A DNA stretch of 21,643 nt from a virus: positions 2,646 through 24,288 of the IMG/VR virus record IMGVR_UViG_3300030333_003064; one strand, written 5' to 3'. Positions 914-18,800 of this stretch are shown here, piece by piece. The notes below the pieces were generated by a model. It was not told the DNA's origin. It made no database searches and saw only the letters and a program-made list of their open reading frames with translations. Position 1 is the stretch's first letter. Every line of letters starts with the position of its first letter. The position numbers were made by a program, and so were the translations under genes.

Positions 914-1510
914 TTACGTTACATTTTTTGCCGCTTCTACCGCGCCGCCGCCTACTGTGCCGCCTAACGTTGACCCCTCTTTATCTTCATCATTCTTGTT
1001 AAGGTGTTTGTATAATTTGTTAGCAGAGCCAATAGTCTTTGTGGTTTTGTCAATAATTTTTTTACCAGTCTTTAATTTTCCTCCTATTACATTTAAACCA
1101 GCTTTTCCTAAATCTTTTAAATTTTTTTCTCCTTCTACTACACCAGCAGCTGTTCCTATTACACCAGCAAAACCAGTTGGATCATACTTTTGTGCTTTAC
1201 CCATACCGTGTTGAACTGATTGTAGTCGTTCTTTTAATGTGAAATCTTTACTTCTTTTATTAGGATCATTTCTAGCAGCCCATAATTCTGGATATTCTTG
1301 TTTAAACTTTTCTTGCTCAGGTGTAAGCTCCCATGACGTTGAATCAAACTCTGATGTATCAATATTTGAATGATCACCTGTTGCACCTCCTTGTAAAAGT
1401 GTGTCCCAATCAGGTTCATTGTCGTTAGTTAACGGTGACACTGTAGCATGTTTTGGAAAACCTTTCATTTTATAAGACAACCCACTTCTATTACTTTTAG
1501 TTCTTGCCAT
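914..1510 (-). CDS. Unknown protein with internal MKGFPKHATVS tag, Gly-rich C-terminus
   Basis: 198 residues, no enzyme family recognised. After a 12-residue basic start (MARTKSNRSGLS) comes YKMKGFPKHATVSPL. This is nearly the N-terminus of the protein encoded at 4532-5077, although the two proteins otherwise look unrelated and their codons differ synonymously. The middle (about 60-100) is polar and charged. The C-terminal half is Gly/Ala/Lys-rich with alternating small hydrophobic residues (GFAGVIGTAAGVVEGEKN, GLNVIGGKLKTGKK) and ends GGTVGGGAVEAAKNVT; it could pack as amphipathic helices. It is the last gene of the minus-strand unit, 18 bases from the bidirectional hairpin. The start at 1510 is favoured by the leader and spacing. 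An in-frame ATG inside the tag (residue 15) would remove part of the motif and is less likely. Confidence 0.72.
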   Translation of the reverse strand: MARTKSNRSGLSYKMKGFPKHATVSPLTNDNEPDWDTLLQGGATGDHSNIDTSEFDSTSWELTPEQEKFKQEYPELWAARNDPNKRSKDFTLKERLQSVQHGMGKAQKYDPTGFAGVIGTAAGVVEGEKNLKDLGKAGLNVIGGKLKTGKKIIDKTTKTIGSANKLYKHLNKNDEDKEGSTLGGTVGGGAVEAAKNVT

Positions 1511-1531
1511 AGTTGATATACAGTTTTTTAT

Positions 1532-1792
1532 TTATTTTGCCGTAGTCTCTTCTTTACCTTTCTTATTTTCTGATATTTTTTTAACTAACGCTTTCCAATC
1601 ATCAAAGTCTACATCATCTTCTCCTCCTCCAATTTCATTTATAGCTGCATTAACCTCACTGCTTGTTACGTTGTGTTGTTTTAAAAAATTATTTCTCCAC
1701 GCATCAGAGCCTTCATCGCCTGTAGGTGGAGTTGGTTTCCCTTGCATAGTTTGTTTTGTAAATGCGGACCATCCGTTCATTTTAAATGCCAT
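1532..1792 (-). CDS. Small MAFK-tagged protein
   Basis: 86 residues. It starts MAFKMNGWSAFTKQ, almost the same opening as the protein at 5790-6098 (MAFKLNGWSAFTSP), but the rest of the two proteins differs. The body contains an acidic stretch, GGGEDDVDFDDW (about residues 54-65), and a Lys/Glu-rich C-terminus (KKISENKKGKEETTAK). No signal peptide, membrane segment or known domain is seen. The gene sits 19 bases downstream of the neighbouring tagged gene with an AT-rich leader. Function unknown; it is probably co-expressed with the other tagged proteins. Confidence 0.75.
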   Translation of the reverse strand: MAFKMNGWSAFTKQTMQGKPTPPTGDEGSDAWRNNFLKQHNVTSSEVNAAINEIGGGEDDVDFDDWKALVKKISENKKGKEETTAK

Positions 1793-1811
1793 AATATTAT
1801 TTTTTTAATTG

Positions 1812-3344
1812 TTATAAAAATTTGTTATATCTTTGTCTTATAGCGAAGCCTTTAGCTCTGCTTTTGTTATTAATATATTCTTCATGTTTTTTAGAGCCAA
1901 ATTTAAATGGGTTTTGGTCTGCGTTCATTAAGCTTTCTTGAGAATAATAATTAATTTGTTTAGTTAACTCTTCTAGATTTTTGTTATTCCATTTAGCGTA
2001 AGCTGAACTAGTTTTAGGTGGACCCATTCTTTTGTCTAAATAATCTACAACTCCATCTTTATTATAATCTTTAGGGTCAAACTCTTGTTCTTTAGTTTCA
2101 GTTTCTTCAACTTCATTTTCATCTTCATTACCACCAATAGCAGCTTCTTCTTCAACTGGAGGTATATCTGGAGAAAATTTATTTTGATTCATTTTTGCTA
2201 TATCTTCGTCCATCATAGCGGTGAAATCATCAGTATATTCTTTATTTTCGTTTACATCAGCGGTTTGATTTTGGTCTTCGTCTTCTTCGACTATTGCTTT
2301 ACCTTCTAATTGGCTAAACGTTTTACTTCCTTTAGTTGTTGGGTAACTTACTGTTTTGTTACTTACATCTTTAAACAGATTCATTTTTTTCATAGCCTGT
2401 TCATGTGACACTCCATCTTCTCTTAGTTTTTGATAATCTTCCCAATTACCACCTCGTAAATCACTATATCCTTCAATAAGAGAATAGTACTTTTCTGGAT
2501 CCCTTGCCATTAATTCTTTTTTAATATGGTTTGGTATATCTTTTGGCCCATCTTTATGATTAATATACTTCATAGCTTTATCATAATACCTTTCAGCTAA
2601 TCTAACTTTATTAGCATCCTCAAACTCTTCTTTACTTTTTTCTATATTGCCAGCTAAAACCGGATGAGGTTTATAGTTAGTAACATCAATATTTCCTAAT
2701 ACATTAGATAGTTTATCAGCGTCCCAACCATAACCTTTACTTGCTGATTCTTTTAAATCTGTATCAATCCATCTAGCTTGGTTAAGCTTTTTTTGAAATA
2801 TTTTTTTTGCTGCATTTCTATCAAATCTACCATCTTTATAAATACGTACACCTTCTTTTTCTAGATTTTTTTTATTTTTCTTTACCCAATTTTTAAAATC
2901 AGCATTAGTAGGTTGTTTAAAACCTCCTTCATCATCAAGTTCAAAATTAAATTTAAGTGGATCATTTTTATAATTTTTTAATCTTTTTTGAACGTGTTCC
3001 CAGTTATCAATATTGATTTTATCTTGTTCTGTAATATCTCCTCCCCAACCAAAATAATCTGAACCTAGTTGATCTCTTACGTTATCAGAAGTGGTAGGAT
3101 TTAAGTGATGTGAACCAGAAGCAATTCCGCTTTGAGGTATAACATCAGGAGCTATAGAATAACCATGTTTTTCTTCAAATCTTTTATCATATTCTCTCCA
3201 CTCGTCTGCCTTGTCTCCATATTGTGCGTAAGGATCATATTCACCCTCACGATTATATGGGTGAGACGCAGAGTGGTACGTTGCAAAACTTTTACCTATA
3301 CCTGTTCCTTTACCGGGATTAAACCCTTTCATTTTAAATGCCAT
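1812..3344 (-). CDS. MAFK-tagged 510-residue protein with a calcium-loop-like motif
   Basis: The largest tagged protein. It opens MAFKMKGFNPGKGTGIGKSF. The body is hydrophilic and rich in Asn, Lys, Asp and aromatic residues, with no membrane segment and no family I recognise. A strongly acidic, probably disordered stretch spans about residues 348-425. It is followed by DYNKDGVVDYLD at 426-437, whose D426, N428, D430, D434 and D437 spacing fits an EF-hand/dockerin-type calcium-binding loop. The C-terminus is basic (KGFAIRQRYNKFL). Its start is 2 bases from the stop codon of the upstream thioredoxin-fold gene. Its size and late-block position would suit a virion or virion-associated protein, but that is a guess from context. 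Confidence 0.78.
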   Translation of the reverse strand: MAFKMKGFNPGKGTGIGKSFATYHSASHPYNREGEYDPYAQYGDKADEWREYDKRFEEKHGYSIAPDVIPQSGIASGSHHLNPTTSDNVRDQLGSDYFGWGGDITEQDKINIDNWEHVQKRLKNYKNDPLKFNFELDDEGGFKQPTNADFKNWVKKNKKNLEKEGVRIYKDGRFDRNAAKKIFQKKLNQARWIDTDLKESASKGYGWDADKLSNVLGNIDVTNYKPHPVLAGNIEKSKEEFEDANKVRLAERYYDKAMKYINHKDGPKDIPNHIKKELMARDPEKYYSLIEGYSDLRGGNWEDYQKLREDGVSHEQAMKKMNLFKDVSNKTVSYPTTKGSKTFSQLEGKAIVEEDEDQNQTADVNENKEYTDDFTAMMDEDIAKMNQNKFSPDIPPVEEEAAIGGNEDENEVEETETKEQEFDPKDYNKDGVVDYLDKRMGPPKTSSAYAKWNNKNLEELTKQINYYSQESLMNADQNPFKFGSKKHEEYINNKSRAKGFAIRQRYNKFL

Positions 3345-3346
3345 AA

Positions 3347-3742
3347 TTATTGAAATTTATTAAGTGTTATAGTATCAACTGCGTGCTGTACTGTTTTTTT
3401 ATCTGCTTCTAATTTAAACATTACATTAGGATTGAAGCGAGCTTTCTCAATACCGTTATCAAATATAATAACTGTCGGTACAGCTGTAATATTATAATCT
3501 GCTTGTATGTCCATAGATGACATAATATCAACACGATATACATTACATCCCTTTAATTTATTTAATTCATTAAACTGATTCATTTTATTCCAGTCAGCCC
3601 AAAATTCTACAGCAACAACATCTTTAGCTATTTTGTTTTTAAAATTACTATTATCAGCAAACTCTTGAGCAGAACATGTACCTATACAAAATACAAACAG
3701 CATTACAAATACATAAATAAAGTTAGATAAATCTAGTGTCAT
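3347..3742 (-). CDS. Exported thioredoxin-fold protein lacking the CxxC cysteines
   Basis: 131 residues. A hydrophobic N-terminus (residues 7-22) ends in CSAQ/EF, a signal-peptide junction of the kind common in Bacteroidota, so export to the periplasm is likely. The rest matches a thioredoxin fold: VVAVEFWADW (42-51), a later strand VYRVDI, and the cis-proline region AVPTVIIFDNG (P89). In thioredoxins the motif after FWA-W is CxxC. Here it is N52-K-M-N55, so both redox cysteines are replaced by Asn. The remaining C66 lies elsewhere and cannot form the usual couple. The protein is therefore unlikely to be a disulfide oxidoreductase and may act as a binding or chaperone module. Its start overlaps the upstream membrane-protein stop (ATGA, 3739-3742), which suggests translational coupling. 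Confidence 0.82.
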   Translation of the reverse strand: MTLDLSNFIYVFVMLFVFCIGTCSAQEFADNSNFKNKIAKDVVAVEFWADWNKMNQFNELNKLKGCNVYRVDIMSSMDIQADYNITAVPTVIIFDNGIEKARFNPNVMFKLEADKKTVQHAVDTITLNKFQ

Positions 3743-4083
3743 TTTCTTAAAAGTTTTATTTCCTCTTTCATTTCATCTACCTCCTTTATTACTGCGTTGA
3801 TTTGATTACGAGCCATTTGATCTTTCATGTTGAACTCCATACGAGTTGGCGGCCACGTATTAGTAGCAGCCGGATCACCCATGTCTATAGTATATGTACC
3901 AGTTCCTGGTTTAGGTAATTCCAAAGCTTTTTCTACTTTACCTTCTAGTTCTGCAAACTTAGAATTAATACTAGCCATTAAACCAAAATAAGCAGATACA
4001 ACTGTAACTACTGCTACAACTATACTGATTAATGTTTTAACACTAATTTGAAATTTACTTTCTTCTGAAAGTTCTTTAGCCAT
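3739..4083 (-). CDS. Single-pass membrane protein with coiled-coil segments
   Basis: 114 residues. A short charged N-terminus is followed by one membrane segment (about 17-39, LISIVVAVVTVVSAYFGLMA). Then come a helical charged stretch (SKFAELEGKVEKALEL), a Pro/Gly-rich loop with TWPPTRMEFN, and a C-terminal helix (about 90-114) with heptad-like spacing. This architecture fits a phage-encoded inner-membrane accessory protein, such as a holin-like or spanin-like component. No family signature proves either, and one transmembrane segment with a long soluble tail is not diagnostic. It overlaps the exported thioredoxin-fold gene by four bases, so the two may work together in the envelope. Confidence 0.75.
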   Translation of the reverse strand: MAKELSEESKFQISVKTLISIVVAVVTVVSAYFGLMASINSKFAELEGKVEKALELPKPGTGTYTIDMGDPAATNTWPPTRMEFNMKDQMARNQINAVIKEVDEMKEEIKLLRK

Positions 4084-4089
4084 AGCTAT

Positions 4090-4230
4090 TTAATTTTTTA
4101 AATTATCTATTTGTGGTGGTTTTGTTTCTATCTTTGGCTCTTGTTTTTTAACCTCAGACTTACTACCTCTCATGTAGTCAATACACATTTTAATTCCAGG
4201 TAACGCCTGGTTTCTATATCCTTTTGCCAT
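4090..4230 (-). CDS. 46-residue small protein (MAKGYRNQALPG...)
   Basis: A short reading frame that fills the gap between two genes: ATG at 4228-4230, stop TAA at 4090-4092. The peptide starts MAKGYRNQALPGIKMCIDYMRG and continues as a Lys/Glu/Pro-rich tail (KKQEPKIETKPPQ). Support comes from its perfect fit in the gap and from its leader, which is nearly identical to the one before the tagged gene at 4252-4506 (AATAAATAAATAAATTATGG in both). The second residue and the early basic residue resemble the MAFK openings of its neighbours. No domain recognised; one cysteine. Confidence 0.68.
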   Translation of the reverse strand: MAKGYRNQALPGIKMCIDYMRGSKSEVKKQEPKIETKPPQIDNLKN

Positions 4231-4250
4231 AATTTATTTATTTATTTATT
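4231..4250 (-). promoter_or_regulatory. Repeated A/T leader before the 46-residue gene
   Basis: On the minus strand the bases before the start read as TAAA repeats ending AAATT before ATG. This is the same as the leader at 4507-4523. Such A-rich, Shine-Dalgarno-free leaders are usual for translation initiation in Bacteroidota. Confidence 0.5.
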
Positions 4251-4251
4251 A

Positions 4252-4506
4252 TTAATTTCCAGGTTGTGGTTTTTTAAAAGAACGTAGCAAACTTTGGTGT
4301 CGTGGGTTATTTTCATCAAATTTAATCCCATAATAAGATTCTAGTTCACTTATGTAGTATGCTTTTTCTTTTGGAGTAAACTGAACATTCGTGGTATCTT
4401 GTTCTTCTGATTTTTGCTCCATGTGTTGATGATCGCCATCTGAATGCTTAGTGTCTGCGTGAGTAAAACCTGATCTCAACGGAAATCCTTTCATTTTAAA
4501 TGCCAT
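4252..4506 (-). CDS. Small MAFK-tagged His/Glu-rich protein
   Basis: 84 residues starting MAFKMKGFPLRSGF. The tag is followed by a His/Asp/Gln/Glu-rich hydrophilic stretch (THADTKHSDGDHQHMEQ, about 15-31) that could bind divalent metal but matches no named site. A C-terminal part resembling a compact helical module follows (PKEKAYYISELESYYGIKF, about 45-63), ending in RSFKKPQPGN. The start is fixed by the tag and by the repeated AT leader at 4507-4523. The protein has no signal peptide. Function unknown. Confidence 0.75.
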   Translation of the reverse strand: MAFKMKGFPLRSGFTHADTKHSDGDHQHMEQKSEEQDTTNVQFTPKEKAYYISELESYYGIKFDENNPRHQSLLRSFKKPQPGN

Positions 4507-4523
4507 AATTTATTTATTTATTT
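4507..4523 (-). promoter_or_regulatory. Repeated A/T leader before a MAFK-tagged gene
   Basis: Minus-strand sequence AAATAAATAAATAAATT directly precedes the ATG at 4506. It is shared with the leader at 4231-4250; weaker versions (TTAATAAATAAAAC) precede the tagged gene at 5790-6098. It probably serves as a translation-initiation leader. Confidence 0.5.
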
Positions 4524-4531
4524 GTTTAACT

Positions 4532-5077
4532 TTAAACTTTATCTTGCATTTTTTTAATTAGCTTAGTGCCTCTATAAACACCGCTAACAGGATGCTTAGA
4601 GCCTCGAGAGAATAAATCTCTAATTTTTGATCCCAATCTTCTTCTATTAGCCTTTCTATTAGCTCGTCTAGCTGCTCTTCTAGCTTTTCTTTCATCTCCT
4701 TTACCCACTCCTAAAAATTGACCAAGTTTTGTATCCTTGAATTTCTTTCGATCTTTCATCACCCGCGGCGTTTGAGAAATATATTCCGATTCTGTAGGAG
4801 TACTAATGTTAACTTCAGGTTCGTTGGAACTTGCACTAGGTAAATACTCTGTACTTACAGGTTGTGTATCTACAGATGTTCTAACAACCTCTGGCTCTGA
4901 AGGCATTATAGTATCTCCTTCAGTTACATAGTGATCTAATTTTTCTCTTCTAGGATCGTTCCAGTCCATTTCCGTTTGAGGAATATATTGTTTCATTTGC
5001 CTCTGTGATTGAGGAATATACTCCTTAAAAGCAGAAACTGTAGCGTGTTTAGGAAATCCTTTTCTTTTAAACGCCAT
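4532..5077 (-). CDS. MAFK-tagged protein with Arg-rich, nucleic-acid-binding-like C-terminus
   Basis: 181 residues starting MAFKRKGFPKHATVSAFKEY. The tag is the same as the one inside the protein at 914-1510. Next come short repeats around YIPQ (EYIPQSQ, QYIPQTE, and later EYISQTP), then a Ser/Glu/Pro-rich low-complexity middle (about 60-105). The C-terminus is very basic (KARRAARRANRKANRRRLGSK, about 129-150) and is followed by a helical end (GTKLIKKMQDKV). Such Arg/Ala-rich tails bind nucleic acid or pack with DNA in virions. Together with the tag this suggests a DNA-associated internal protein, which is inference. The stop lies 24 bases before the next tagged gene. Confidence 0.76.
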   Translation of the reverse strand: MAFKRKGFPKHATVSAFKEYIPQSQRQMKQYIPQTEMDWNDPRREKLDHYVTEGDTIMPSEPEVVRTSVDTQPVSTEYLPSASSNEPEVNISTPTESEYISQTPRVMKDRKKFKDTKLGQFLGVGKGDERKARRAARRANRKANRRRLGSKIRDLFSRGSKHPVSGVYRGTKLIKKMQDKV

Positions 5078-5079
5078 GA

Positions 5080-5787
5080 TTATTTTATTTTAAGTTTTAT
5101 TTTACCATCTTCAATATATAATCCTTCTGGTTCTTTTATTGCTTGCCCGTTAATATTATATATTACACTATTTTGCTTAGATTTATTTATAAGCTCGTCT
5201 ATGTTAGAGCTACAAGGTAATCCAGTATCGCAGTCTACATACTCCGTGATGTATTCTATAAACTCTACATATTCTATTTCTACTATAGTATCATAAACAA
5301 ATACTTCTACATATTCAATAACATCAACAAATAAAGTATCTAATATATCTTCATATACTGTTACTGTATCAGTAATATAAATATACTCAGGCACAAACAC
5401 TTCTACTTCTACTGTATCAACTATAATTTCATATACATACTCTGTATTAATTATAGTATCATATATTGTTTCATAAATAGTTTCATACTCTGTCACGTAT
5501 ACTGTATCACAATCTGGTGGTGGAGGAGCGCATTCTTCTATTGGTGTAGGTTCAGCATTATCTTCATCACTACCATCTACACAGTCTTCCCAACCATCAT
5601 TTAAATAAAACAAATTTGGGCCATTAGGTACACAACCATTAGGTGAATACTGTGTCCAGTTAGCTGGGTCATCTCCACAATAAAAACCATTTTGTTCTGC
5701 ACATTCAATACATAATTGTTGAAAGTCAAGTTGCGCACTAGCGAACGAGCTAATAAACGCAAATAAAATTATAATATATTTTTTCAT
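5080..5787 (-). CDS. Secreted repeat protein with LDLa-like motif and T9SS-type C-terminal sorting domain
   Basis: 235 residues. A signal peptide (residues 1-19, MKKYIIILFAFISSFASAQ) precedes a Cys-rich segment. In it, NDGWEDCVDGSDE (63-75), together with C26, C29, C37 and C52, looks like an LDL-receptor class A calcium-binding motif. Residues 93-186 are a strongly biased Asp/Thr/Tyr/Val/Ile/Glu repeat of alternating 'DT[IV]', 'EYV' and 'YETI' units, probably an extended beta-rich stalk flanked by DCD motifs. The end, VIYNINGQAIKEPEGLYIEDG (208-228) then KIKLKIK, matches the type A sorting domain of the Bacteroidota type IX secretion system. That domain directs proteins across the outer membrane and onto the cell surface. 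The gene lies between tagged genes with 2-base spacings on both sides. It could be a host-surface protein made during infection or a virion fibre element borrowed from host adhesins. Confidence 0.78.
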   Translation of the reverse strand: MKKYIIILFAFISSFASAQLDFQQLCIECAEQNGFYCGDDPANWTQYSPNGCVPNGPNLFYLNDGWEDCVDGSDEDNAEPTPIEECAPPPPDCDTVYVTEYETIYETIYDTIINTEYVYEIIVDTVEVEVFVPEYIYITDTVTVYEDILDTLFVDVIEYVEVFVYDTIVEIEYVEFIEYITEYVDCDTGLPCSSNIDELINKSKQNSVIYNINGQAIKEPEGLYIEDGKIKLKIK

Positions 5788-5789
5788 AG

Positions 5790-6098
5790 CTATTTGTTTT
5801 TATGTAATTTATCGTATATTTCTTTACCTTTTTTATCTAAGTCACTTCTTTTAACTGGCGCCTCGTTTTGCTCTTTTAAAAAGTCTTTATCGGCTTCTAT
5901 ATTAGATTTAAATCTATTTATATCTTGTTTTATTTTGTTTATAGCAGATTTTAAATTTGTTTGAACTTTTTTATTACCAATGTTTTTTGGGTTTAATCGA
6001 TCTAGCCTAAGATTAGCTAAATCTTTTCTAGCTTCTTTTAATCTTCTTTTATCGTCAGGGCTAGTAAACGCAGACCATCCGTTTAATTTAAATGCCAT
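5790..6098 (-). CDS. Small MAFK-tagged basic helical protein
   Basis: 102 residues starting MAFKLNGWSAFTSP, sharing its opening with the protein at 1532-1792. The rest is Lys/Arg/Asp/Asn-rich and predicted helical or coiled coil (RRLKEARKDLANLRLDRLNP, then AINKIKQDINRFKSNIEADK), ending in a basic tail (KGKEIYDKLHKNK). No known domain. It sits 2 bases from the stop of the LDLa/T9SS-like gene's start, in the same tight arrangement as its neighbours. Codon use is like the rest of the block. Confidence 0.75.
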   Translation of the reverse strand: MAFKLNGWSAFTSPDDKRRLKEARKDLANLRLDRLNPKNIGNKKVQTNLKSAINKIKQDINRFKSNIEADKDFLKEQNEAPVKRSDLDKKGKEIYDKLHKNK

Positions 6099-6120
6099 AG
6101 TTATTTGTTTTATTTATTAA

Positions 6121-6366
6121 TTAATAAACGTCTCCGTAAGGATTAATCTTTCTTCTTTCTTTTTCACTTAAACCTGCTTCTTTTAATAGCCTTTCTGCCT
6201 TTTGAGTTTTTGCTATTTTTTTCTCGTATTTTTTTTCAGGCCCCATATAAGGATCATCAGGATTAACACCTGGTCCATGTTTTTTAGCTAGTCTTTTTGC
6301 TCTTGCAATTTTTATATTTTTTCTTAATTTATCAAACGGTTTCCAGCCTTTCATCTTAAATGCCAT
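6121..6366 (-). CDS. Small MAFK-tagged very basic protein
   Basis: 81 residues starting MAFKMKGWKPFDKLRK. Lys and Arg make up a large share (KNIKIARAKRLAKKHG, KKYEKKIAKTQKAERLLKEA), with a Pro/Gly/Asp-rich turn in the middle (GPGVNPDDPYMGPEK). It ends ERRKINPYGDVY. It resembles a nucleic-acid-binding or DNA-packing peptide, but no family is recognised. The start is fixed by the tag and lies 3 bases from the stop of the upstream outer-membrane-like gene. Confidence 0.74.
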   Translation of the reverse strand: MAFKMKGWKPFDKLRKNIKIARAKRLAKKHGPGVNPDDPYMGPEKKYEKKIAKTQKAERLLKEAGLSEKERRKINPYGDVY

Positions 6367-6369
6367 ATC

Positions 6370-7413
6370 TTAAAATATTAAATAGTTAAAACCAAATTTT
6401 ACTTCGTATATTTCTTTACCCCAATATCTCATGTGTATACCTTCTACAAATAAACCTAAGCTTTTAGTTATCTTAGTTCCAAATATAATACCAGCGTCCC
6501 ACTCTGCCATACTGTCTTCATATTCATATGAGTAATCATCTAACCCATAATGATATGGTAAAAAGTTATACCATGTGTGCAACCAAAATTTAGGTGTATA
6601 CTTATAATAAGCAACTCCTAATACCGCACTAAGTTCTTTTTGTAAACCTAACTTCTCAAGTTCACGCTCATTGTATCTTGCAACCGCATCACCGAAGTAG
6701 TGGTTGAAGAACTCATCATTAGAGGTAGCTACTAACACTGAGTCTCCACCACTAACATCGTACCAGTTTTGGTCTATATAAAAACCTTGATTCCAAGGTT
6801 GAGGCACGTAGCCAAAGTCTTCTGCTAAATCTTGAAATGTACTTTCGCCTGGTACCCAAAAATCTTCTATAGGATTTACTCCATATACAGGATGCACTCT
6901 AAACATTGTCCCAATAGTAAAGTCCCAGTTACCTTTATTAAATCTTATTCTATAATCTAACGATGAGTATCTTAAATTTACCCTTTCATTATCTGTGTAC
7001 TGTGCTTTAACCACAAACCAATCGCCGAGGTAACGTAGCCAAAAATTTTGCTCAGTAAACTTTTCACCACGATTACGTATAAAAGAATAATTAAACAAAT
7101 ACTCCCAGCCATTAGCATTACCAATAGTAACATTGTCTGCAGTATTTCTTTCGGTTCCAGTATACCATGTTTGTCTTTTCGTCTCATAATCAAATCTAGC
7201 TATTTTGCGTAATCCTAACGTTAAATTATAATCATACGCGTTAATTTCAGTTATGTCTTCGTAACCTTTGTTTACAGCTCTATAATCTTCTCTTTCAGCA
7301 AATGATGTATTCATAGACATCGATGTATAGAAAGTTGAAAACTTAAAGAAGTCTTTTATCTGAGCCGTACTTATAGTACTAACTAACAGAAATAATAATA
7401 TTATGTTTTTCAT
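6370..7413 (-). CDS. Exported beta-barrel-like outer membrane protein
   Basis: 347 residues. A clear signal peptide (MKNIILLFLLVSTISTAQ, 1-18) has the usual Bacteroidota 'AQ' junction. The mature part is rich in aromatic residues and alternating strands (YNLTLGLRKIARFDYE, WDFTIGTMFRVHPVYG, KFWLHTWYNFLPYHYG) separated by polar loops. The final strand, EVKFGFNYLIF, ends in Phe, as outer-membrane beta barrels usually do for recognition by the assembly machinery. No named family is recognised. It lies inside the phage late block, next to tagged genes, and would be placed in the host outer membrane. Plausible roles are receptor masking or superinfection exclusion, or envelope disruption; none is shown by the sequence. 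Confidence 0.75.
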   Translation of the reverse strand: MKNIILLFLLVSTISTAQIKDFFKFSTFYTSMSMNTSFAEREDYRAVNKGYEDITEINAYDYNLTLGLRKIARFDYETKRQTWYTGTERNTADNVTIGNANGWEYLFNYSFIRNRGEKFTEQNFWLRYLGDWFVVKAQYTDNERVNLRYSSLDYRIRFNKGNWDFTIGTMFRVHPVYGVNPIEDFWVPGESTFQDLAEDFGYVPQPWNQGFYIDQNWYDVSGGDSVLVATSNDEFFNHYFGDAVARYNERELEKLGLQKELSAVLGVAYYKYTPKFWLHTWYNFLPYHYGLDDYSYEYEDSMAEWDAGIIFGTKITKSLGLFVEGIHMRYWGKEIYEVKFGFNYLIF

Positions 7414-7423
7414 TTTTAGTTAT

Positions 7424-7828
7424 TTAGCATTTCCATCTACGTCTAGCAGCTTTACCTCTTTCTCCGGTCCAGCCTTTTGATCTAGCGCAAAATGATTTTC
7501 TACGTTTAGCAGCCTTGCTACCTGGTTTTACTTTACCAGTTACAGCAGTTTTTAATTTGCTACCAGGGTTTTTACGTCTGTAAGCAGCAACGCCTTTAGC
7601 TGTCATACCAGCTCCTTCTTTTACAGTACGAAAATTACGATTTTTACCTTTAGTTGTTTTTCTAGGCTCGTTGCTCTTTTTTCTTTTTTTTCTTTTTTCT
7701 AATGGAGACTCTACTTCCATATAAGTATTAGGTGACGTAATAGTCATAGGTGCATTATCATGCATAAACGTTCTACGTCTACCACAAGGTGTTACATTAA
7801 ATGGATTATTTTTTTGAACGTACGCCAT
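7424..7828 (-). CDS. Basic phage protein with KSFCAR / RRWKC module (DUF6321-like)
   Basis: 134 residues. The C-terminal half carries a pattern I know from many marine phage proteins: GMTAKGVAAYRRKNPGSKLK (74-93) then KPGSKAAKRRKSFCARSKGW (101-120), ending RRRWKC. I associate it with DUF6321-type domains, but the exact Pfam name is from memory. C15, C114 and C134 are the only cysteines; the last two are conserved in the family and could bind metal or pair. The N-terminal part (MAYVQKNNPFNVTPCGRRRT) is specific to this protein, followed by a Lys/Arg-rich linker (44-65). The strong positive charge suggests contact with nucleic acid, but no function is established. No signal peptide. Confidence 0.76.
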   Translation of the reverse strand: MAYVQKNNPFNVTPCGRRRTFMHDNAPMTITSPNTYMEVESPLEKRKKRKKSNEPRKTTKGKNRNFRTVKEGAGMTAKGVAAYRRKNPGSKLKTAVTGKVKPGSKAAKRRKSFCARSKGWTGERGKAARRRWKC

Positions 7829-7831
7829 TGT

Positions 7832-8086
7832 TTATTTTTTAGGTACACAATTAGGTACTTTTCTACCACCTTTTTTCTTCATACCAATCATTTCATAACC
7901 TTTCCAACAAGGATCTTTTTTTCTACTTTTCTTTTTAGCAAAAGCAGACCGCATTGGGGGTCCATCACCTTTCATTTTGTCAATATGTTTTTCTATAGTA
8001 TCAGCTTGTTTTCCATGTGCCTTGACCGCATTACGTAGTTCTCCTACAACGTTCTCAAGGTTTTTATATTTCATTTTAAACGCCAT
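7832..8086 (-). CDS. MAFK-tagged protein with DPCW...PNCVP module
   Basis: 84 residues. The tag is in its shortest form here (MAFKMKYKNLENV). A helical stretch (ENVVGELRNAVKAHGKQADT, 11-30) and a linker ending in FAKKKSRKK follow. The C-terminus is DPCWKGYEMIGMKKKGGRKV then PNCVPKK, with C60 and C80. This last module is common at the end of small proteins in marine phage genomes, as I recall, with the two cysteines kept. Its role is unknown; a small metal-binding or disulfide-stabilised fold is possible. The tag is fused to a widespread phage module, which shows that the tag can be joined to different bodies. The start is 10 bases from the stop of the upstream gene. Confidence 0.78.
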   Translation of the reverse strand: MAFKMKYKNLENVVGELRNAVKAHGKQADTIEKHIDKMKGDGPPMRSAFAKKKSRKKDPCWKGYEMIGMKKKGGRKVPNCVPKK

Positions 8087-8096
8087 AACTAAAATT

Positions 8097-8405
8097 TTAA
8101 ATTTTTAATGTTGCTCTATTAGTTGTTGGATTATAAGTATAATTACTTGGGCTGTTACCAGAACTTTTAGATGCTCTATCTATAGCTCTTTCACTAGCGG
8201 TCATGCTGTTTCTTATTTCACCTTTATTAGTAAAAGAACCATCTAAATTCATATCACCTCTATTAATAAGAATATTTTTAGCTAAATTACTACTACCAAC
8301 TTGGGCTGATAATCTAGGATACAATTGATTCCTACCCATAAAAGCTTGTGTTTCAACTTTCTTGAATGGATTTCTAGAACAATGTATTTTAGAAAACTTA
8401 CCCAT
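8097..8405 (-). CDS. Unknown 102-residue phage protein
   Basis: The protein starts MGKFSKIHCSRNPFKKVE and is hydrophilic, Asn/Ser/Thr-rich towards the C-terminus (SSGNSPSNYTYNPTTNRATLKI). A segment NRGDMNLDGSF (48-58) has Asp/Asn spacing reminiscent of a calcium loop, but it is too short to claim. No signal peptide or membrane segment. It lies 1 base from the stop of the transpeptidase-like gene's reading frame (stop 8407), so the two are probably translated together. No family recognised. Confidence 0.68.
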   Translation of the reverse strand: MGKFSKIHCSRNPFKKVETQAFMGRNQLYPRLSAQVGSSNLAKNILINRGDMNLDGSFTNKGEIRNSMTASERAIDRASKSSGNSPSNYTYNPTTNRATLKI

Positions 8406-9826: not shown

Positions 9827-12800
9827 TTATTGATGAGCATAACATTTTTTATTTGTATTCTCTGTTTTGTTCTTACATCTCTGCCCATTAGATTTAGTTG
9901 CTGTACACCTATATTCTTTCTTACCGTCACCATCAGTATCGCTTCCATCTTTGAATTCTCTATGATGAACGCACTTCCAAGATTTTTTATTTGTCTCCGT
10001 TGTATTACCACATCTTCTACCATTTGATCTTATACCAGAACATCTAACTGTTTTAATACCTTTCTTTTTCTTTTCTTCTTCTTCTTTTTTCTTTTCCTCT
10101 TCTTTCTTTTTCTTTTCTTCTTCTTTTTTAATTTTCTTTTCTTCTTCTTTTTTCTTTTTCTTTTCTATTTTAATTTCTTCTTTTGCCGCTTCTACTTCTT
10201 CGTCTTTAACACCTAACTCCCATCTATTCCAACCCAATACCATCGCGACTCTTTTCCAAGTTTCATGATTACCAGTTATAGCTTCTTCTAAATTATTAGC
10301 CTTATTAACAATCCTTGATAATGGTATATTAAGAGTAGCTTCTATAATACTAGCCCATTTATGTAACTCTGGGTTATCAATACTCCAACCTATTTTTTCA
10401 CCAACACCCTTATTGTACACTTCAGTGTCAAAAGCTTGGATTACTTTTCTAACCTTACTACCTATTGGTGGAGAAAGATTTATTACTTCTTTTGCTATTT
10501 TCCACTTATCTCGCTTTCCATATGGTAAATTCTTTTGAAGATTCCATTGTATAATAGTATTTTTAAGAGTAGATAATAAAGCTCCATATAAACCAGTACC
10601 TCTTAAAAACGAGTCTAACGCTTGGTTAAAAGTTCTTCTTGTTCTATTTTCTATTTCTTCTTCTTCATCTCCCCACACAAAAGCAGCTAACGCTGTTTGT
10701 AGTCCCGCGAATATAACATTTTGTATTGCGCCATAATATAATATTTTAGAAACATTTGTTTTCCAATCTCCTCTACGATTAACCAAATCAGACATAGCCT
10801 TTTTAGTCAACCTACCCATTTGCATTGTAACGTTTTGAAACGCTAATACTATTCTACCTAATGAACCCGCTTGCTGTTGTGATATTAAATCTTCCCTTGA
10901 AGATTGTTGCGTTTCTTCTGCGACTTCTTGGAAGTCTAACATAGCTTGCTCGTGAGCTTGTTTGTCGGACATTCCTTCTTTTTTGTATTTTTTAAACCGG
11001 TTTCTATACATCGAAGCCCCACCAAAAGCTATTGCAAAACTATCTGCAATTTGTGTTGGTGTAAAACCTTTTTGTAATAAATAATTAATTACCGCTCTTG
11101 GCGTAGCACCACCCTCAGCAAACGTTTTAGTTAACTCTGATGCTGATACATCTGTTTGTAAACCTTTTCTTCTTTGCTTTAACATAGGTGAATTAAAAAG
11201 CATAACAAAATCTTTCCAAAATTGTGGTTGATTAGCAAACGCCGCTGCCGCCTTAAATATATTATTATCTGACCAGTTTATAAAGTTAACTGTAGATATA
11301 GTTTGAAGTATAGCAGATCTCATATTAAAGAACATTATAGCACCAACAGAACCGTTTATCCATTCAGTAAAGCGATTTACAATTTTATCTTTACCGTACG
11401 TTCTATTAGTACCATTCTCCATACGATATAATATATTTTCTAAAGCCTCTACAAAGTTATCGCCATATAATGCTCTTATTTTATTTATATTTTCTTTAGA
11501 AAATATTATATCTTTATTATTAATCCACTCTTCTAGGAATTCTTTTCTACCGATTTTATCAACTATATTTCTCATATCAGACGGTATTGTTTCTACCATC
11601 CAATTTTCACTAGGCTTAACATACCCTTCTTTTCTTTTACTAATTTTTGATAAGCCTTCAGCAAATGATTTAGCATCAGAATTTTTATTTACATAATCTA
11701 TTAATTGTTTTTTTAATTGTTTTGATATACCTGGAATATCAAAACCTGCCTTATCCCATAAATATACCCTAATTGCCGTATCAACCGTAAAACTTGTTCC
11801 AGGTATTCTTTTGTTTAACTTAACACTAGGGAGTCGTTTCTTCAAAGATTTATAATCATCGACCATGTTTTGTTTATATGCGTTCCAATTTTTAATACCT
11901 TCGCTAAAAGGTTTAAATAAATTATCTGCAAAGAATTTTAAATCAGCATCGCCTTGTTTTCCTTTACCTAAAAAGTAATACATTAATCCTTTAAAGTCTT
12001 CCGCGGATGGTGGTATATAAAGACTTTTTAAAAACCTTTTAATATTTGGCTGCGCTCCTCTTTTTCTAGCTTCAGCATACGAAAATACTTTTCCAGCGTC
12101 TGTACCAGTCCTTCTTTCTAACATGTCGTTAAAATTTTTACTAGCATCTTGACTAAATTTTATTTTAGCTTGCACAACTTTTGATTTAACATCTAGTTGA
12201 TCTAATACTTTTTTTACAGCTTCAACGTTTTGTATTGCATCATCTACAAAATACATATCATTATATCCTTCTGCATATTTTTCTAGTATCCATTCAGCTT
12301 TAGCATTAGGAGAACTGTTAGCTAACCCTGTAATATTTTCTATTGGAATATCTAATCCTTGAGATTTTAAAAATTGCTGTATAGGACCAGCGGACTGTTG
12401 TGGTCTAGCTGTTAAAATAAATACATCTTTATTTCCAAACTTTTCTATTCTTTGTTTAGCCTTGTCTAATAACGGCCCGGGCGTCCCGTCAACAACATCG
12501 TTAAATTCTGTAAAATCAAATTCTCCACCTTGTTCTAATATAGCATCACCTTGTTCGGCAAATGTCTCAGCATCTAATCTACGTTTTTCATAACCAGAAA
12601 CAAATTTATCCATTTTTGATACAAACTTACTTGGCATGGGGCTGTCTATTGTCATATTATCTGTGTTAACTTCCATAAACGTATCTCCAAATAATATTTT
12701 AAAAGCTTCTTTGTTTCCTTGAACAGCCTCGTGGTTTCGTTTAACAATCGTATCTAATAAAGATCTTTCTTTTCTAGCTCTGTTTCTTTCTAAAGCAACA

Positions 12801-15800
12801 TCTAAAGACGTATCAACAAACACCATACTAACGTCGTACCCTTTGGCCTTAAACTCATCTACTAACTTTTGCATTTGTTTTATTGATCCTCCAGTACCAT
12901 CAACTACCACTCCATCACCCTCGCCTTGGTATTTCATCATTTTACCTTTAGCTATTTTTCTAGCTTGATGACCTAGCTTACCAAGTATACTTCTTTGTTC
13001 TGGGGTTAAATCTCTCATATCTTCAGGTAAACCATGATTCTTTTTTAACCACTCTAACGATATATCAGAATTAACGACTTTAAACCCTGCATTTTCAAGG
13101 CCTAATTTTTTTATAACATTTCCTTTACCACTACCAGCGCCACCAGCTAAAAATATAACCTTTCTTTTTGGTTTAGGTGTTCCATCAGGATTAGGCATTG
13201 TCACCCTAACGCCTGACTTTGTAAATCCTAATGTATCGTCAAAGTCAAAAATAGAAGCGCCTTGTGTTTTACCAGCTTGACTAAGTTTTATTACATTACT
13301 AAAAGCGTCACTTCGGGCAGCTTGCTTAGAATTTTTAATAGAAGCATCAGCTATAATATTTGCCATCACTTGTGCTCTTGTTCTTTCAATTAAAATCTCT
13401 TGATATGATTTTCCATCAGCTGATACTAAGTTTGCTTGATCTTTAGATTTTAAATGCTTCATTCTATTAAACTCAGCAGTACTAGTTTTTCCCCCAGGTC
13501 CATCGTCTATCATATCAGTACTATAATCTGAAGTAAATAATTGACTATGATTAGAAAATATAACATCAAGCTGTGCGTCTAAATCAAGCTCAGGGCTATT
13601 TATTAACTCCGCTACTCCTAACATTGTGTTACTATTAGCTTTAACATGCTCGCCTTTTGGCTTCATCTGACTTAAGGCGTTCTTTTTTCCTTTTTTAGAT
13701 TTATAATAAGAAGTAGCTTCTTTAAATTGAGGGTGCGAATCAGATATTGTCTGAGAACCTTCTCTAACGTCAATTAAATCAGTTCTTGATAAAGCCCTAA
13801 AACCTTGAACTATACTAGTTTGGGCTTGTAATATATTTATTGCAGATAAAACGCTTATTCCTCCATTATTAGGACCTTTTCTAGCTAACTCAATAATTGT
13901 TTTAGCTATATGTTTAGCTAATATTATATTTGCTGTATTTGCCTTTTCTATCTCTGGTGCTAATTCTTTTAATTTTTTTAATTTAGTTTCTTTAGATGTC
14001 TCTGCTAATATATTATTTATCTTTTTATATATACCACCAGGTATCATAATATTTTTTAATCTAACGTCTCCTAAAATTAAACCTGGTGGTAAAGATTGAG
14101 GTTTGTTATTTATTTTTAAGTTTTGAAGAGAAGGGTAGTATTTACCTGGTATACGCTTACCATCACTATCTAACGCATATCCTTTCACGTCAACTTTACC
14201 TTTTTTTATAAGAACTGTTTGCTCTTGCTTTGATAGCTTATTCCACTTTGGGTACATTTTTTCCTTAGCTGGGTCTAATACTCTATTCTTATAACCAACT
14301 ATTTCATATCCTATAGTATTCATTATATCAGAACCTAAAACTTTTGCTATAATATTAGCGTCACGATCTAACATATCTAAATTTGCATACCTTAAGTTAC
14401 CTTGCTTTTTTAAAGCGTCTTTAGTTTCTTGAGAAAATTTATCACTTTTAAATATACCTTGTTTAAATCTTATAGACTCTTCTTCTAATATAATATTTTG
14501 ATTATATGCATCAATTATGCTAGACATAGCGTACCCTGGTATCTCTGGTAATCCATCAACAAAGTCTCCATCAGGGTTTAATATAGCCTCTAAACCACCG
14601 CCTTGTTCAATTAAAGTTAATATATCATCTACATTTTTTATAACTGTATTTGATGCTTGTTCAGACATTTTCATGTCGTTTCGTAATGTAACATCTAATT
14701 CAGCAAGATAATTATCTTTTAATTGTCTATTTTGTAATTGTTCTACTTGTCCTAATTTTCCACTTTTTATTAAATCAGCTGCTACTTCATTAGCTATTCT
14801 AAGACCAATTGCGCTAGCTAAACTTTTTGCAAGAGATGTTTTTCTAGTACCAAGTGTTGAATTACCAACCTCATAACCAAGAATCTTTTGAGCGTTAGTT
14901 CCTCTAAAAAAAGCTAATAATTCTTTTTTAGTAGGTTTCAATCTAGTTTTTAAATTATAACCTTGAGAATATTTATTAAAACGTTTAGGTATAAGTCCCT
15001 TTTTTTGAAGATCTATTATATCACCTTTTTTTGTTATTCTTGTTTGTGTTTGAAAAATTTTTCTACCACCAGGAAAACGTTTTCCTCCAGCTTGCTTTTC
15101 CATTTGGTTAAGGTCATTTATATCAATATATTCTAGCAATGCTGGTAGATCATTTTTTATAAAATCGTTATAACTAGCTTCTGTTCCAAATATTTTTTGT
15201 ATTTTATTAGTTAACTTATTTGTAATTATTTTTTTAAGTTCTGTTCTTAACTTATCATTAGTAACTTCTGGCAACCTAGTACCAAACGCTGTATTTAAAG
15301 CTTGCTTAAATTCTTCTCTTAATTGTACAGCTTCTTCTTTTTGTTTTTTTGTTTTTGGTTTTAATATTAATGGAATTAAGTTATTTAAAGTTTCCTGCGT
15401 AACTTGATTACGTTTAGCTTCTTCTTTTGCTATTAACTGCTCTTCTGGTGATAGTTCTTGAGAGGCTTCTTCAAACATTGGCCTTCCTTCTTCTGTTCTA
15501 GCATCTATATCTCTAGCTTGACGTAATTCATCAACCATATACTCTGGTCGTTGCTGTACGTTTAGTACTTTATTTTTTAATTGTGAATTTATCCAACCAA
15601 ATAAACCTGTTGACTCTCCTGGAAAATCACTTTCATATTTAGCATTTTGTTCTGGTTTATAATTTTTTATATGACTACTAAGTTCATTATATACATCATT
15701 TTTAAATTGCTCTTTTACAGCTTGCGGCGCTTTCATGATACGCTCGTCTGTAACAGCCCCCATTATAAGATCACCAAGTGAATCTTCTTTAATTAAATTA

Positions 15801-18800
15801 TCTATAAAATCTTTAGAGCCAAAATCTTTCCAAAGTTTATTTCCCCCTTCTCCTTCGTAGGCACCCTTAGCCGCATCATTTACATCTGATGAAACATCTC
15901 TAGAAAACTTTATATTATCATCAAGATTTGTATCGTATTGTTCGTTGATATTATCTATAAACTCGCTGGTTTCTTGAGCTTCTTGAACCACTTTGGATTT
16001 TTCAGCTGCTTTTATATCTTTTATAGTTAAGCTACCATTTTTAATTTTTTCAGCTAATTTAGTAATAAAAGTTACAGCGTCAATTTCTCCCTCGAAACTG
16101 TAATCCATGTTAGCCTTTTTTGTGAATAGATTAGCTATTTTAGCTCCTAATCCCTTGTGTTTCTTTAAAACTTTTTTACTACCCACTAATTCCATGAAAT
16201 TCGTTATAACTTCATCTATTGGCATACCTTGAGTTCTTTGTCTCAATAGCAATCCTAAAGCAGGATCCACCGTGTCGACATGTTCCATTAGTTGTTCTGC
16301 TATTTCTCTAAACGCCTCTGGATTCATTCCTATAATCTTACTTAAAACAGTATGGCCATGTTCGTGGGTCTTAGTTTCTAATCTACCACTTCTAGCCATA
16401 TTTTCAACAACTTGAAATGCTATATATTTGCCCTCTTCTACAAGTACTTTTTTGCCATCTTTAATTTCAAATTTATCATCACTAACTTTAATATTAGAAC
16501 CATAAAGAGTTCCTTTTTCAATACCTTCTATTAATTGTTGTTTTTGGCTTTCAGATAAATCAGTTCTTCCTTCAACCCATTTAACAGCATCTTCTTTAGT
16601 TTGTAGACTAGTAAATCCGTCTCCTAAATCTATTTTACTTGATTTTTTAGTTTGTTCATTTATGTATTCAACATTAAAAAGATATTCTGCTTCATCACGT
16701 ATTTGTTTTTCAGAAGCATTTTTAATACCTTTTTCTTCAAGTGATAATTCAGCTTCTTTAAACAACCTATCTCTTTTTTCTCTTTTTTCTTTTTGCTTTT
16801 TTCCTCTACCATAAAGAGTAATTGAATTTAAAAAATTTACAAATTGTGAACTTTTAAATACATCAGATGCACCCATTAAATTTAACGAATTAGTAACGTC
16901 GTTGAGTTGAACTTCTAAATCCGCTAATAATTGCTTTTTTGTTACATCATCATAATCACCTGATTCAGATATCTCTTGACTTTTTCTTTTAATTTCTAAT
17001 TCAGCTTTCTTTAAATCATGGTATTGTTCAGCATAATTTTCATGAACTTGATCTAGTCTTGAAATTTGATCTTCTATTATAGTTTCTCGTTCTTGATGAA
17101 GTTCAACAACCTTGTCTTTTATTATATCAACTTGGGAGGATTTTGTTTTTCCATCTTTAATAGCCTGTTGAATTTGCTCATCACTTGGTGTTTCTATGCC
17201 TTCTTTTTTTAATTGATCTCTAGCGGCATTATATTCAGCTCTCATAAGTAAGTCTTCGTATCTTTCTAACTTACCACCAATATCATTATATTTTTGAATT
17301 ATAGATGGTGGTGTATAAAATTTACTTATATATCCTTTAAACGCAGGTGCACTTCCAAAAAATCCACCAAACAAACCACCAGTCCAACCAGAGTGATCAA
17401 CACCTTCCATTATATCAGGGTTTCCAGTCATTAAGTTTTGCCCTATTTGCGTAAATTGTTCTGACCATTTTTCTGCATAGACACTTGATGTTAATTTTAC
17501 GGTACTTGGGGCTAGAGTAGAATTAGCCATAGTAAAACGCTGTCGCAAAGTTTTACCGTATACTTGACCTGGCTTGAATTTAGTAAAAGCCTTAAAAAAA
17601 CTACCCATCAAAGGTTTACTAATAACGTATTCTGGTACAACTTCAAAAGTAGCGTAGCCAGCACTTGTTAACCATTTTTCCCAAGCTGCTGTCTCTGATT
17701 TTAATCCTTCAGATTTTATAATTTTATTATACTGTGCTTGGTCAATTTCGTTTCTAGCTAACATTTCATTTAACTCTTTTACCCTATAATCATTTTGCAT
17801 CATTCTTCCAAATTGATCCCCAAAGCTCATTCCTCCTAAAGATCCTACACCTAAGTAAGGATTTATAAAACTTGCGCCAATTGCCGCGAAAGTAGGAATA
17901 TTAGTACCAAATTCTTGTACTATAAATGGAAGTAGATTACCCGGGTCGTTTCTGTCTTCAAATTTAATTCGGTATTGTTGAAGAGCGAATTGATTACTAT
18001 ATTTATTAGCATTTAATCTATTAACCATTTTTTGATCAATCCTTCTGTGCCTTGCGCTATTTTGAGCTAATAAGTCTTTACCATCAATGTCCGGATCAAA
18101 CGGCGCCGCAACAGCATCTATGGCGGTTGTTGCAACTTTAGCGCCTGTGTAACAAATTTGCCAGAAAGCGTCCTCAAGTCCTCCACCAACATCTTTCATT
18201 CTATTTCTCCAAAAATTATAATCTTTTTCTACAATGCTCCAATATTCAGAGGTTTCTATTCCTGATTCTTCTAATTTTTTTCCAAGCGCTTTCCATCGAT
18301 CTTCAAAGTTAGCACTAAAATCTTCATTTGTACATTCAACAAAAGCAATGTCAGCCATCCAGTTTTCATAAACTGTTTTAGGCATTGTTTTAGTAACTTT
18401 AGAGTTATCTTTATTTGTTAACGTAACATTTATAAGTTCGTCACCCTCTTTGTGTGAAAACTTATAATCAGGATCCATAAAATTATTGTATGTGTCTATA
18501 CATTTTTTATATTCACCTTTGGGATTTTCTACAGTACCAAACATTTCTTCATTCCTCCAATGTACTTGGTTTTTCATCATTTCATATATCTGTAAATCTT
18601 TTTTTAACTCAGCCACTGCTTCGCTAGAGGCAAGTTTTATTTCAGCACCGTCACCAAAGCTTTTACTTTTCATTATATTATCAATGCTTTTTTCCCACGC
18701 GGAATCTTGGCTATTTTTAGTAACTAATTTTAGTGCTAAATTTTTTATTTCAGGATTATTTGCTAGCTCCATATAACCTTTAATTTTTTCACTTTGCCTA

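Follow-up and report, generated by a model that had tools for sequence, protein, structure and literature searches.

The tagged genes

The window, a stretch of 21,643 nucleotides, is part of a virus record of 47,251 bases, in which it spans bases 2646-24288. Seven of its minus-strand ORFs open with MAFK, with starts at 1792, 3344, 4506, 5077, 6098, 6366, and 8086; the original prediction had named these seven, and both the ORF list and the sequence bear it out at every position. Six of the seven predicted proteins match M-A-F-K-[MLR]-[KN]-G-[FW], here called the tag, the exception being the 8086 protein (MAFKMKYKNL). An eighth minus-strand gene (914..1510, 198 aa) carries the tag behind a leader: the predicted protein reads MARTKSNRSGLSYKMKGFPKHATVS, with the leader MARTKSNRSGLS followed by YKMKGFPKHATVS, so that the gene was correctly predicted to be tagged, but from residue 13 rather than residue 12. 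A scan of the whole 47,251-base record found the motif at no other gene.

The other tagged genes, all on the minus strand, encode proteins of 86 aa (1532..1792, MAFKMNGWSAFT); 510 aa (1812..3344, MAFKMKGFNPGKGTG); 84 aa, His-rich (4252..4506, MAFKMKGFPLRSG); 181 aa (4532..5077, MAFKRKGFPKHATVS); 102 aa (5790..6098, MAFKLNGWSAFT); 81 aa, basic (6121..6366, MAFKMKGWKPF); and 84 aa, with a C-terminal DPCWKGYEMIG...VPNCVPKK module (7832..8086). The 1812..3344 protein has one relative (L091) with a similar start and a partly similar body, while its other relatives match at the N-terminus only. The 4532..5077 protein ends in a basic module, FKDTKxGQFLGVGKGDERKARR, that recurs in another tagged protein (L286). 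Some similarities extend beyond the tag core: the 1510 and 5077 proteins have KGFPKHATVS in common, and the 1792 and 6098 proteins NGWSAFT. A variant of the tag, MAYVQKNNPF, precedes a DUF6321 domain (PF19846) in a 134-aa protein at 7424..7828 (minus strand). The 102-aa protein encoded at 8097..8405 (minus strand, MGKFSKIHCSRNPFKK) is a possible degenerate member by resemblance only, its NPFKK-type N-terminus being less like the tag. The DUF6321 (7424-7828) and DPCWKGY (7832-8086) modules match parts of larger phage families, one of which (phrog_727) contains both; the other is phrog_10346.

The untagged neighbors with starts at 3742, 4083, 5787, and 7413 have signal-peptide-like or membrane N-termini, and a further untagged neighbor is endolysin-like. 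Tag and signal peptide therefore look like alternative addresses for late proteins. Three of these minus-strand genes lie inside the tag cluster and have signal-peptide-like starts: a thioredoxin-like protein (3347-3742), a Tyr/Thr/Val-rich repeat protein (5080-5787), and a possible outer-membrane protein of 347 aa (6370-7413).

Affiliation of the phage

The strand carrying the tagged genes also encodes terminase, portal, capsid, a protein in the scaffold position, and a 3,687-residue protein. Both the capsid and the terminase match those of Cellulophaga phage phi38:1 (Pervagoviridae), Flavobacterium elemoviruses, Maribacter phage Panino, and a spring-water assembly, at 41-46% (capsid) and 46-63% (terminase) identity to the best listed relatives, and PHROG portal and virion structural families are also matched. 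Judging from its capsid, portal, and large terminase, which are homologous to theirs, the phage can be placed as a relative of the Pervagoviridae and elemoviruses. The tag-bearing family consists of uncultured ocean viruses whose hosts are probably Flavobacteria.

The tag was not found in phi38:1, Panino, or the spring-water record, all read whole, or in elemoF from base 10,000 onward, and its exact pattern is missing from all four whole records of the cultivated relatives and the spring-water assembly. Searches by tblastn with the tag alone or its consensus against cultivated phages returned nothing meaningful and no tagged phage, the method being blind to a 7-residue tag on its own since a match of that length cannot reach significance. 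The peptide was not found mentioned in the literature searched.

Distribution among uncultured viruses

In IMG/VR, at least 120 stretches match a degenerate DNA pattern that encodes M[AP]FKMKG. Among the matches listed, nearly all are ORF starts followed by very different bodies, with up to seven in a 14-kb stretch, and the window's major-capsid family is present in 48 of the 50 long tag contigs. The same pattern matched 62 stretches in 84,980 bacterial and archaeal species genomes; these are chance-like, so that, at this sensitivity, the tag does not count as a feature of hosts or prophages. In a capsid tree (FastTree only, with most of the no-match contigs not covering the tag zones), tag-bearing contigs are found throughout the environmental clade, which adjoins the tagless cultivated group.

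Exact FKMKG seemed to be missing from most capsid-near contigs, but absence is not claimed, since most of these contigs stop short of the tag zones and four with no exact match (G054, G057, G067, and G095) have variant tags where the zones can be read. Another contig, G087, has no match to a wider motif, but a metallopeptidase-like homolog in it starts MAFSMKP. Contigs without the exact peptide carry variants at the same places, among them MAFTRKSFP, MAFKQKGPLFF, MAYTQKNNPF, and MAFKMKKFSGF. The DUF6321 proteins illustrate how versions can be interchanged on a single body, opening with MAYVQKNNPF (as at 7828, a recurrent variant of the tag module), MAYIQSNNPF, or MAFKMKGWSPY; their homologs in Pelagibacter phages, Methylophilales phages, and cyanophages start directly in the body, without a tag.

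In 341,971 residues there are 49 copies of exact [FY]KMKG, where 0.33 would be expected, and 47 of them are within residues 1-25. The wider motif, M-[APTSG]-[FY]-[KNTVI]-[MLQR]-[KSNR], was applied to 20 assembled contigs and found at 87 of 1164 genes, against 1.4 expected and a maximum of five in 200 simulations, a ratio that is flattering because the rule was written after examples had been seen and the exact tag was the reason for picking 11 of the 20 contigs.

The distribution within genomes is also far from even. Among the matches listed, 103 of 104 exact tags are on the strand of the capsid gene, in zones that flank the structural operon: about -8 to -17 kb from the capsid gene (some at -31 to -33 kb) and +13 to +34 kb, with a single outlier at +57 kb. 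None of those listed is in the structural core, from ~7 kb upstream to 13 kb downstream of the capsid gene, and the exact pattern read backwards has zero matches. Genes with the wider motif are on the late (longest-gene) strand in 86 of 87 cases (P about 1e-11). The search of related phages proposed with the original prediction has thus turned up further tagged proteins, clustered in the late block rather than scattered among early genes. The upstream tag zone of contig G067 contains groEL and groES, which lie about -12 to -8 kb from the capsid gene; the idea that tagged proteins are GroEL clients was dropped, because relatives with groEL have no tags.

What is tagged

As predicted, the bodies behind the tag are unrelated: among the matches listed, 188 distinct tagged proteins fall into 80 body clusters at E 1e-3, or 97 at 1e-6. 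Pfam and PHROGs assign a function to almost none of them. They do have general properties in common. Net charge per residue averages +0.107 for tagged bodies and -0.007 for other small late proteins (p 2e-22), and SPxK/SAxK-type motifs are found in 38 of 86 tagged proteins vs. 25 of 392 others. By a simple hydropathy rule, none of the 86 has a membrane or signal stretch, as compared to 77 of the 392 (p 6e-8); the tag is kept off secreted and membrane proteins, and the view that it is not itself a secretion signal holds. Being basic and free of recognizable signal peptides and membrane segments, the tagged proteins resemble cargo or internal proteins.

One family of 25 proteins with an HExxH motif (L090:537-899 and about 24 homologs), minimal and metallopeptidase-like, is usually tagged, and most members are about 100-165 aa long. 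At the N-terminus of these proteins M and F never vary and A and K are conserved at 90% or more, with residues 8 onward and the spacing variable. AlphaFold gives residues 1-15 a pLDDT below 50, i.e., the tag is predicted to be disordered, with a folded domain behind it whose predicted structure is weakly similar to IrrE/PprI and SprT-like proteins.

Possible functions

The conservation of the tag could arise at the DNA or the peptide level, and if at the latter, by common descent or by common use. At the DNA level, it might mark gene starts for recombination, as an anchor, or promote translation initiation as an A/T-rich downstream box. These A/T-rich genes do favor AAA and TTT codons, and AAA at the first tag lysine (0.89) is slightly above background (0.78). 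The remaining synonymous codons are close to background, however: the third position of glycine carries only 0.05 bits, all four glycine codons are used, and GGG exceeds its background frequency. Upstream of the tagged genes there is nothing but the A-richness common to other genes there. Nor is the tag tied to the start codon: among the matches listed it begins at residue 3 in 164 of 188 proteins and at residues 4-21 in the other 24, behind leaders such as MARKSKAK, so that offsets up to about 20 residues are tolerated. These observations support the peptide rather than the DNA as the selected unit, as proposed from synonymous differences in the window; a DNA-level or initiation element is largely refuted and seems very improbable. 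Purifying selection on the tag is apparent from dN/dS in close pairs, a check the original prediction called for, with a value of 0.33 for tag codons, but at this short distance the tag is no more tightly constrained than the bodies (0.23), in part because variants replace each other.

Descent from an old paralogous family, whose duplicates had disordered bodies that diverged and left only the N-terminus recognizable, would not require the tag to be an address at all. The genes are clustered, some have longer N-termini in common (FNPGKGTG, FPKHATVS), and many tagged bodies are of low complexity, all of which might be expected of such a family. Independent bodies are tagged as well, however, including DUF6321, tagless in unrelated phages, and the weakly SprT/IrrE-like HExxH fold; a single body family can carry differing tags (MAYIQSNNPF or MAFKMKGWSPY); and retention of the N-terminus would itself require selection. 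We consider this explanation improbable. A better contender, if still an unlikely one, is that the tag is a docking motif unrelated to packaging, by which the proteins bind some shared partner of phage or host origin inside the infected cell: a chaperonin, a membrane or lysis factor, or a host-takeover hub. Variant-tagged genes surround the phage groEL/groES in several contigs, any cytosolic partner would suit the exclusion of the tag from secreted proteins, and some bodies, such as the HExxH metallopeptidases, are enzyme-like. On the other hand, the cultivated relatives carry groEL/groES without tags, and a strongly basic set encoded on the late strand is closer to internal virion proteins than to the members of a pathway.

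Our preferred reading, which we hold with about even confidence, is that the tag is a docking or address peptide on late proteins, probably a capsid-targeting signal. The phage would add a linear peptide, read as such, to the front of soluble late proteins, all of which would then be collected by one common phage partner; the scaffold-position protein adjoining the capsid gene, the portal, and the 3,687-residue protein are candidate receptors. The most likely destination would be the inside of the assembling particle, since the tagged proteins are small, basic, and encoded with structural proteins, and there they might be loaded as cargo or as DNA-associated internal proteins, as the T4 internal proteins and P1 DarB are. 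A common receptor, packaging, and injection of the tagged proteins are what we infer; the shared motif, its conservation as a peptide, the unrelated bodies, and its place in one phage clade and the late block of that clade are observed. Counting against packaging, phi38:1, elemo, Panino, and MW202828 have related particles and no tag, and not all tagged proteins are basic, some being neutral or acidic. In a broader and more tentative form, to which we give somewhat less than even credence, one degenerate N-terminal zip code in a clade of marine Bacteroidota phages would load dozens of interchangeable, unrelated proteins, from basic DNA-binding-like peptides to metallopeptidases and others, and new genes would join the virion by gaining the tag.

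Comparison with known systems

Phage genomes are rich in small late genes lacking assigned function, and to our knowledge no loading signal has been described for the phages of marine Bacteroidota. A packaging tag would be a compact one. A clade-wide peptide also provides a sequence rule by which to predict the small late proteins that go together, probably within the virion, and brings the recruitment of cargo by uncultured phages within reach of testing. Encapsulins, which are cellular compartments, offer one parallel: short linear peptides, C-terminal as a rule, load unrelated cargo into their HK97-type shells. The tag resembles these as a short linear peptide on unrelated cargo, but is N-terminal and phage-borne.

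T4 internal proteins are targeted by a 10-residue N-terminal signal, which also works on foreign cargo (PMC10229621). Like the tag, the signal of IPI-III is a short N-terminal peptide on soluble proteins, in T4 bound for the head core; here too an N-terminal peptide is common to unrelated proteins encoded in the late block, but there are many more cargo families and a leader may come before the tag. No prohead protease family was recognizably matched among the proteins searched (a subset of genes, from which a divergent protease could escape), and no conserved position that might be a cleavage site was seen after the tag; the cleaved form of the T4 system is therefore unsupported here, and packaging, in contrast to T4, is suggested by sequence. 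In P1 DarB the first 30 residues suffice for capsid targeting (PMC9024508). That signal is likewise N-terminal, but on one large protein, as compared to a motif of 6-8 residues on dozens of small ones. The tag is probably analogous to the T4 and P1 signals rather than homologous; no sequence relation to T4 is claimed. The podovirus phi-crAss001, which infects Bacteroidota, stores phage proteins in its head and tail; these are large ejection and RNA-polymerase proteins, for which the available part of the report describes no common N-terminal tag (PMC10172136).

Other features of the record

Short runs of N interrupt two genes, a ribonucleotide reductase gene immediately before base 1 of the window and a late gene near record base 24270, and suggest scaffold joins in the record. 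The 3,687-residue late protein (window 9827-20890, minus strand) has an AAA_33/zeta-toxin-like kinase domain at about residues 2573-2719 with a HAD-like stretch after it; two Cys/His repeats (RCxATxxxGxRC...CxxH) are at the C-terminus.
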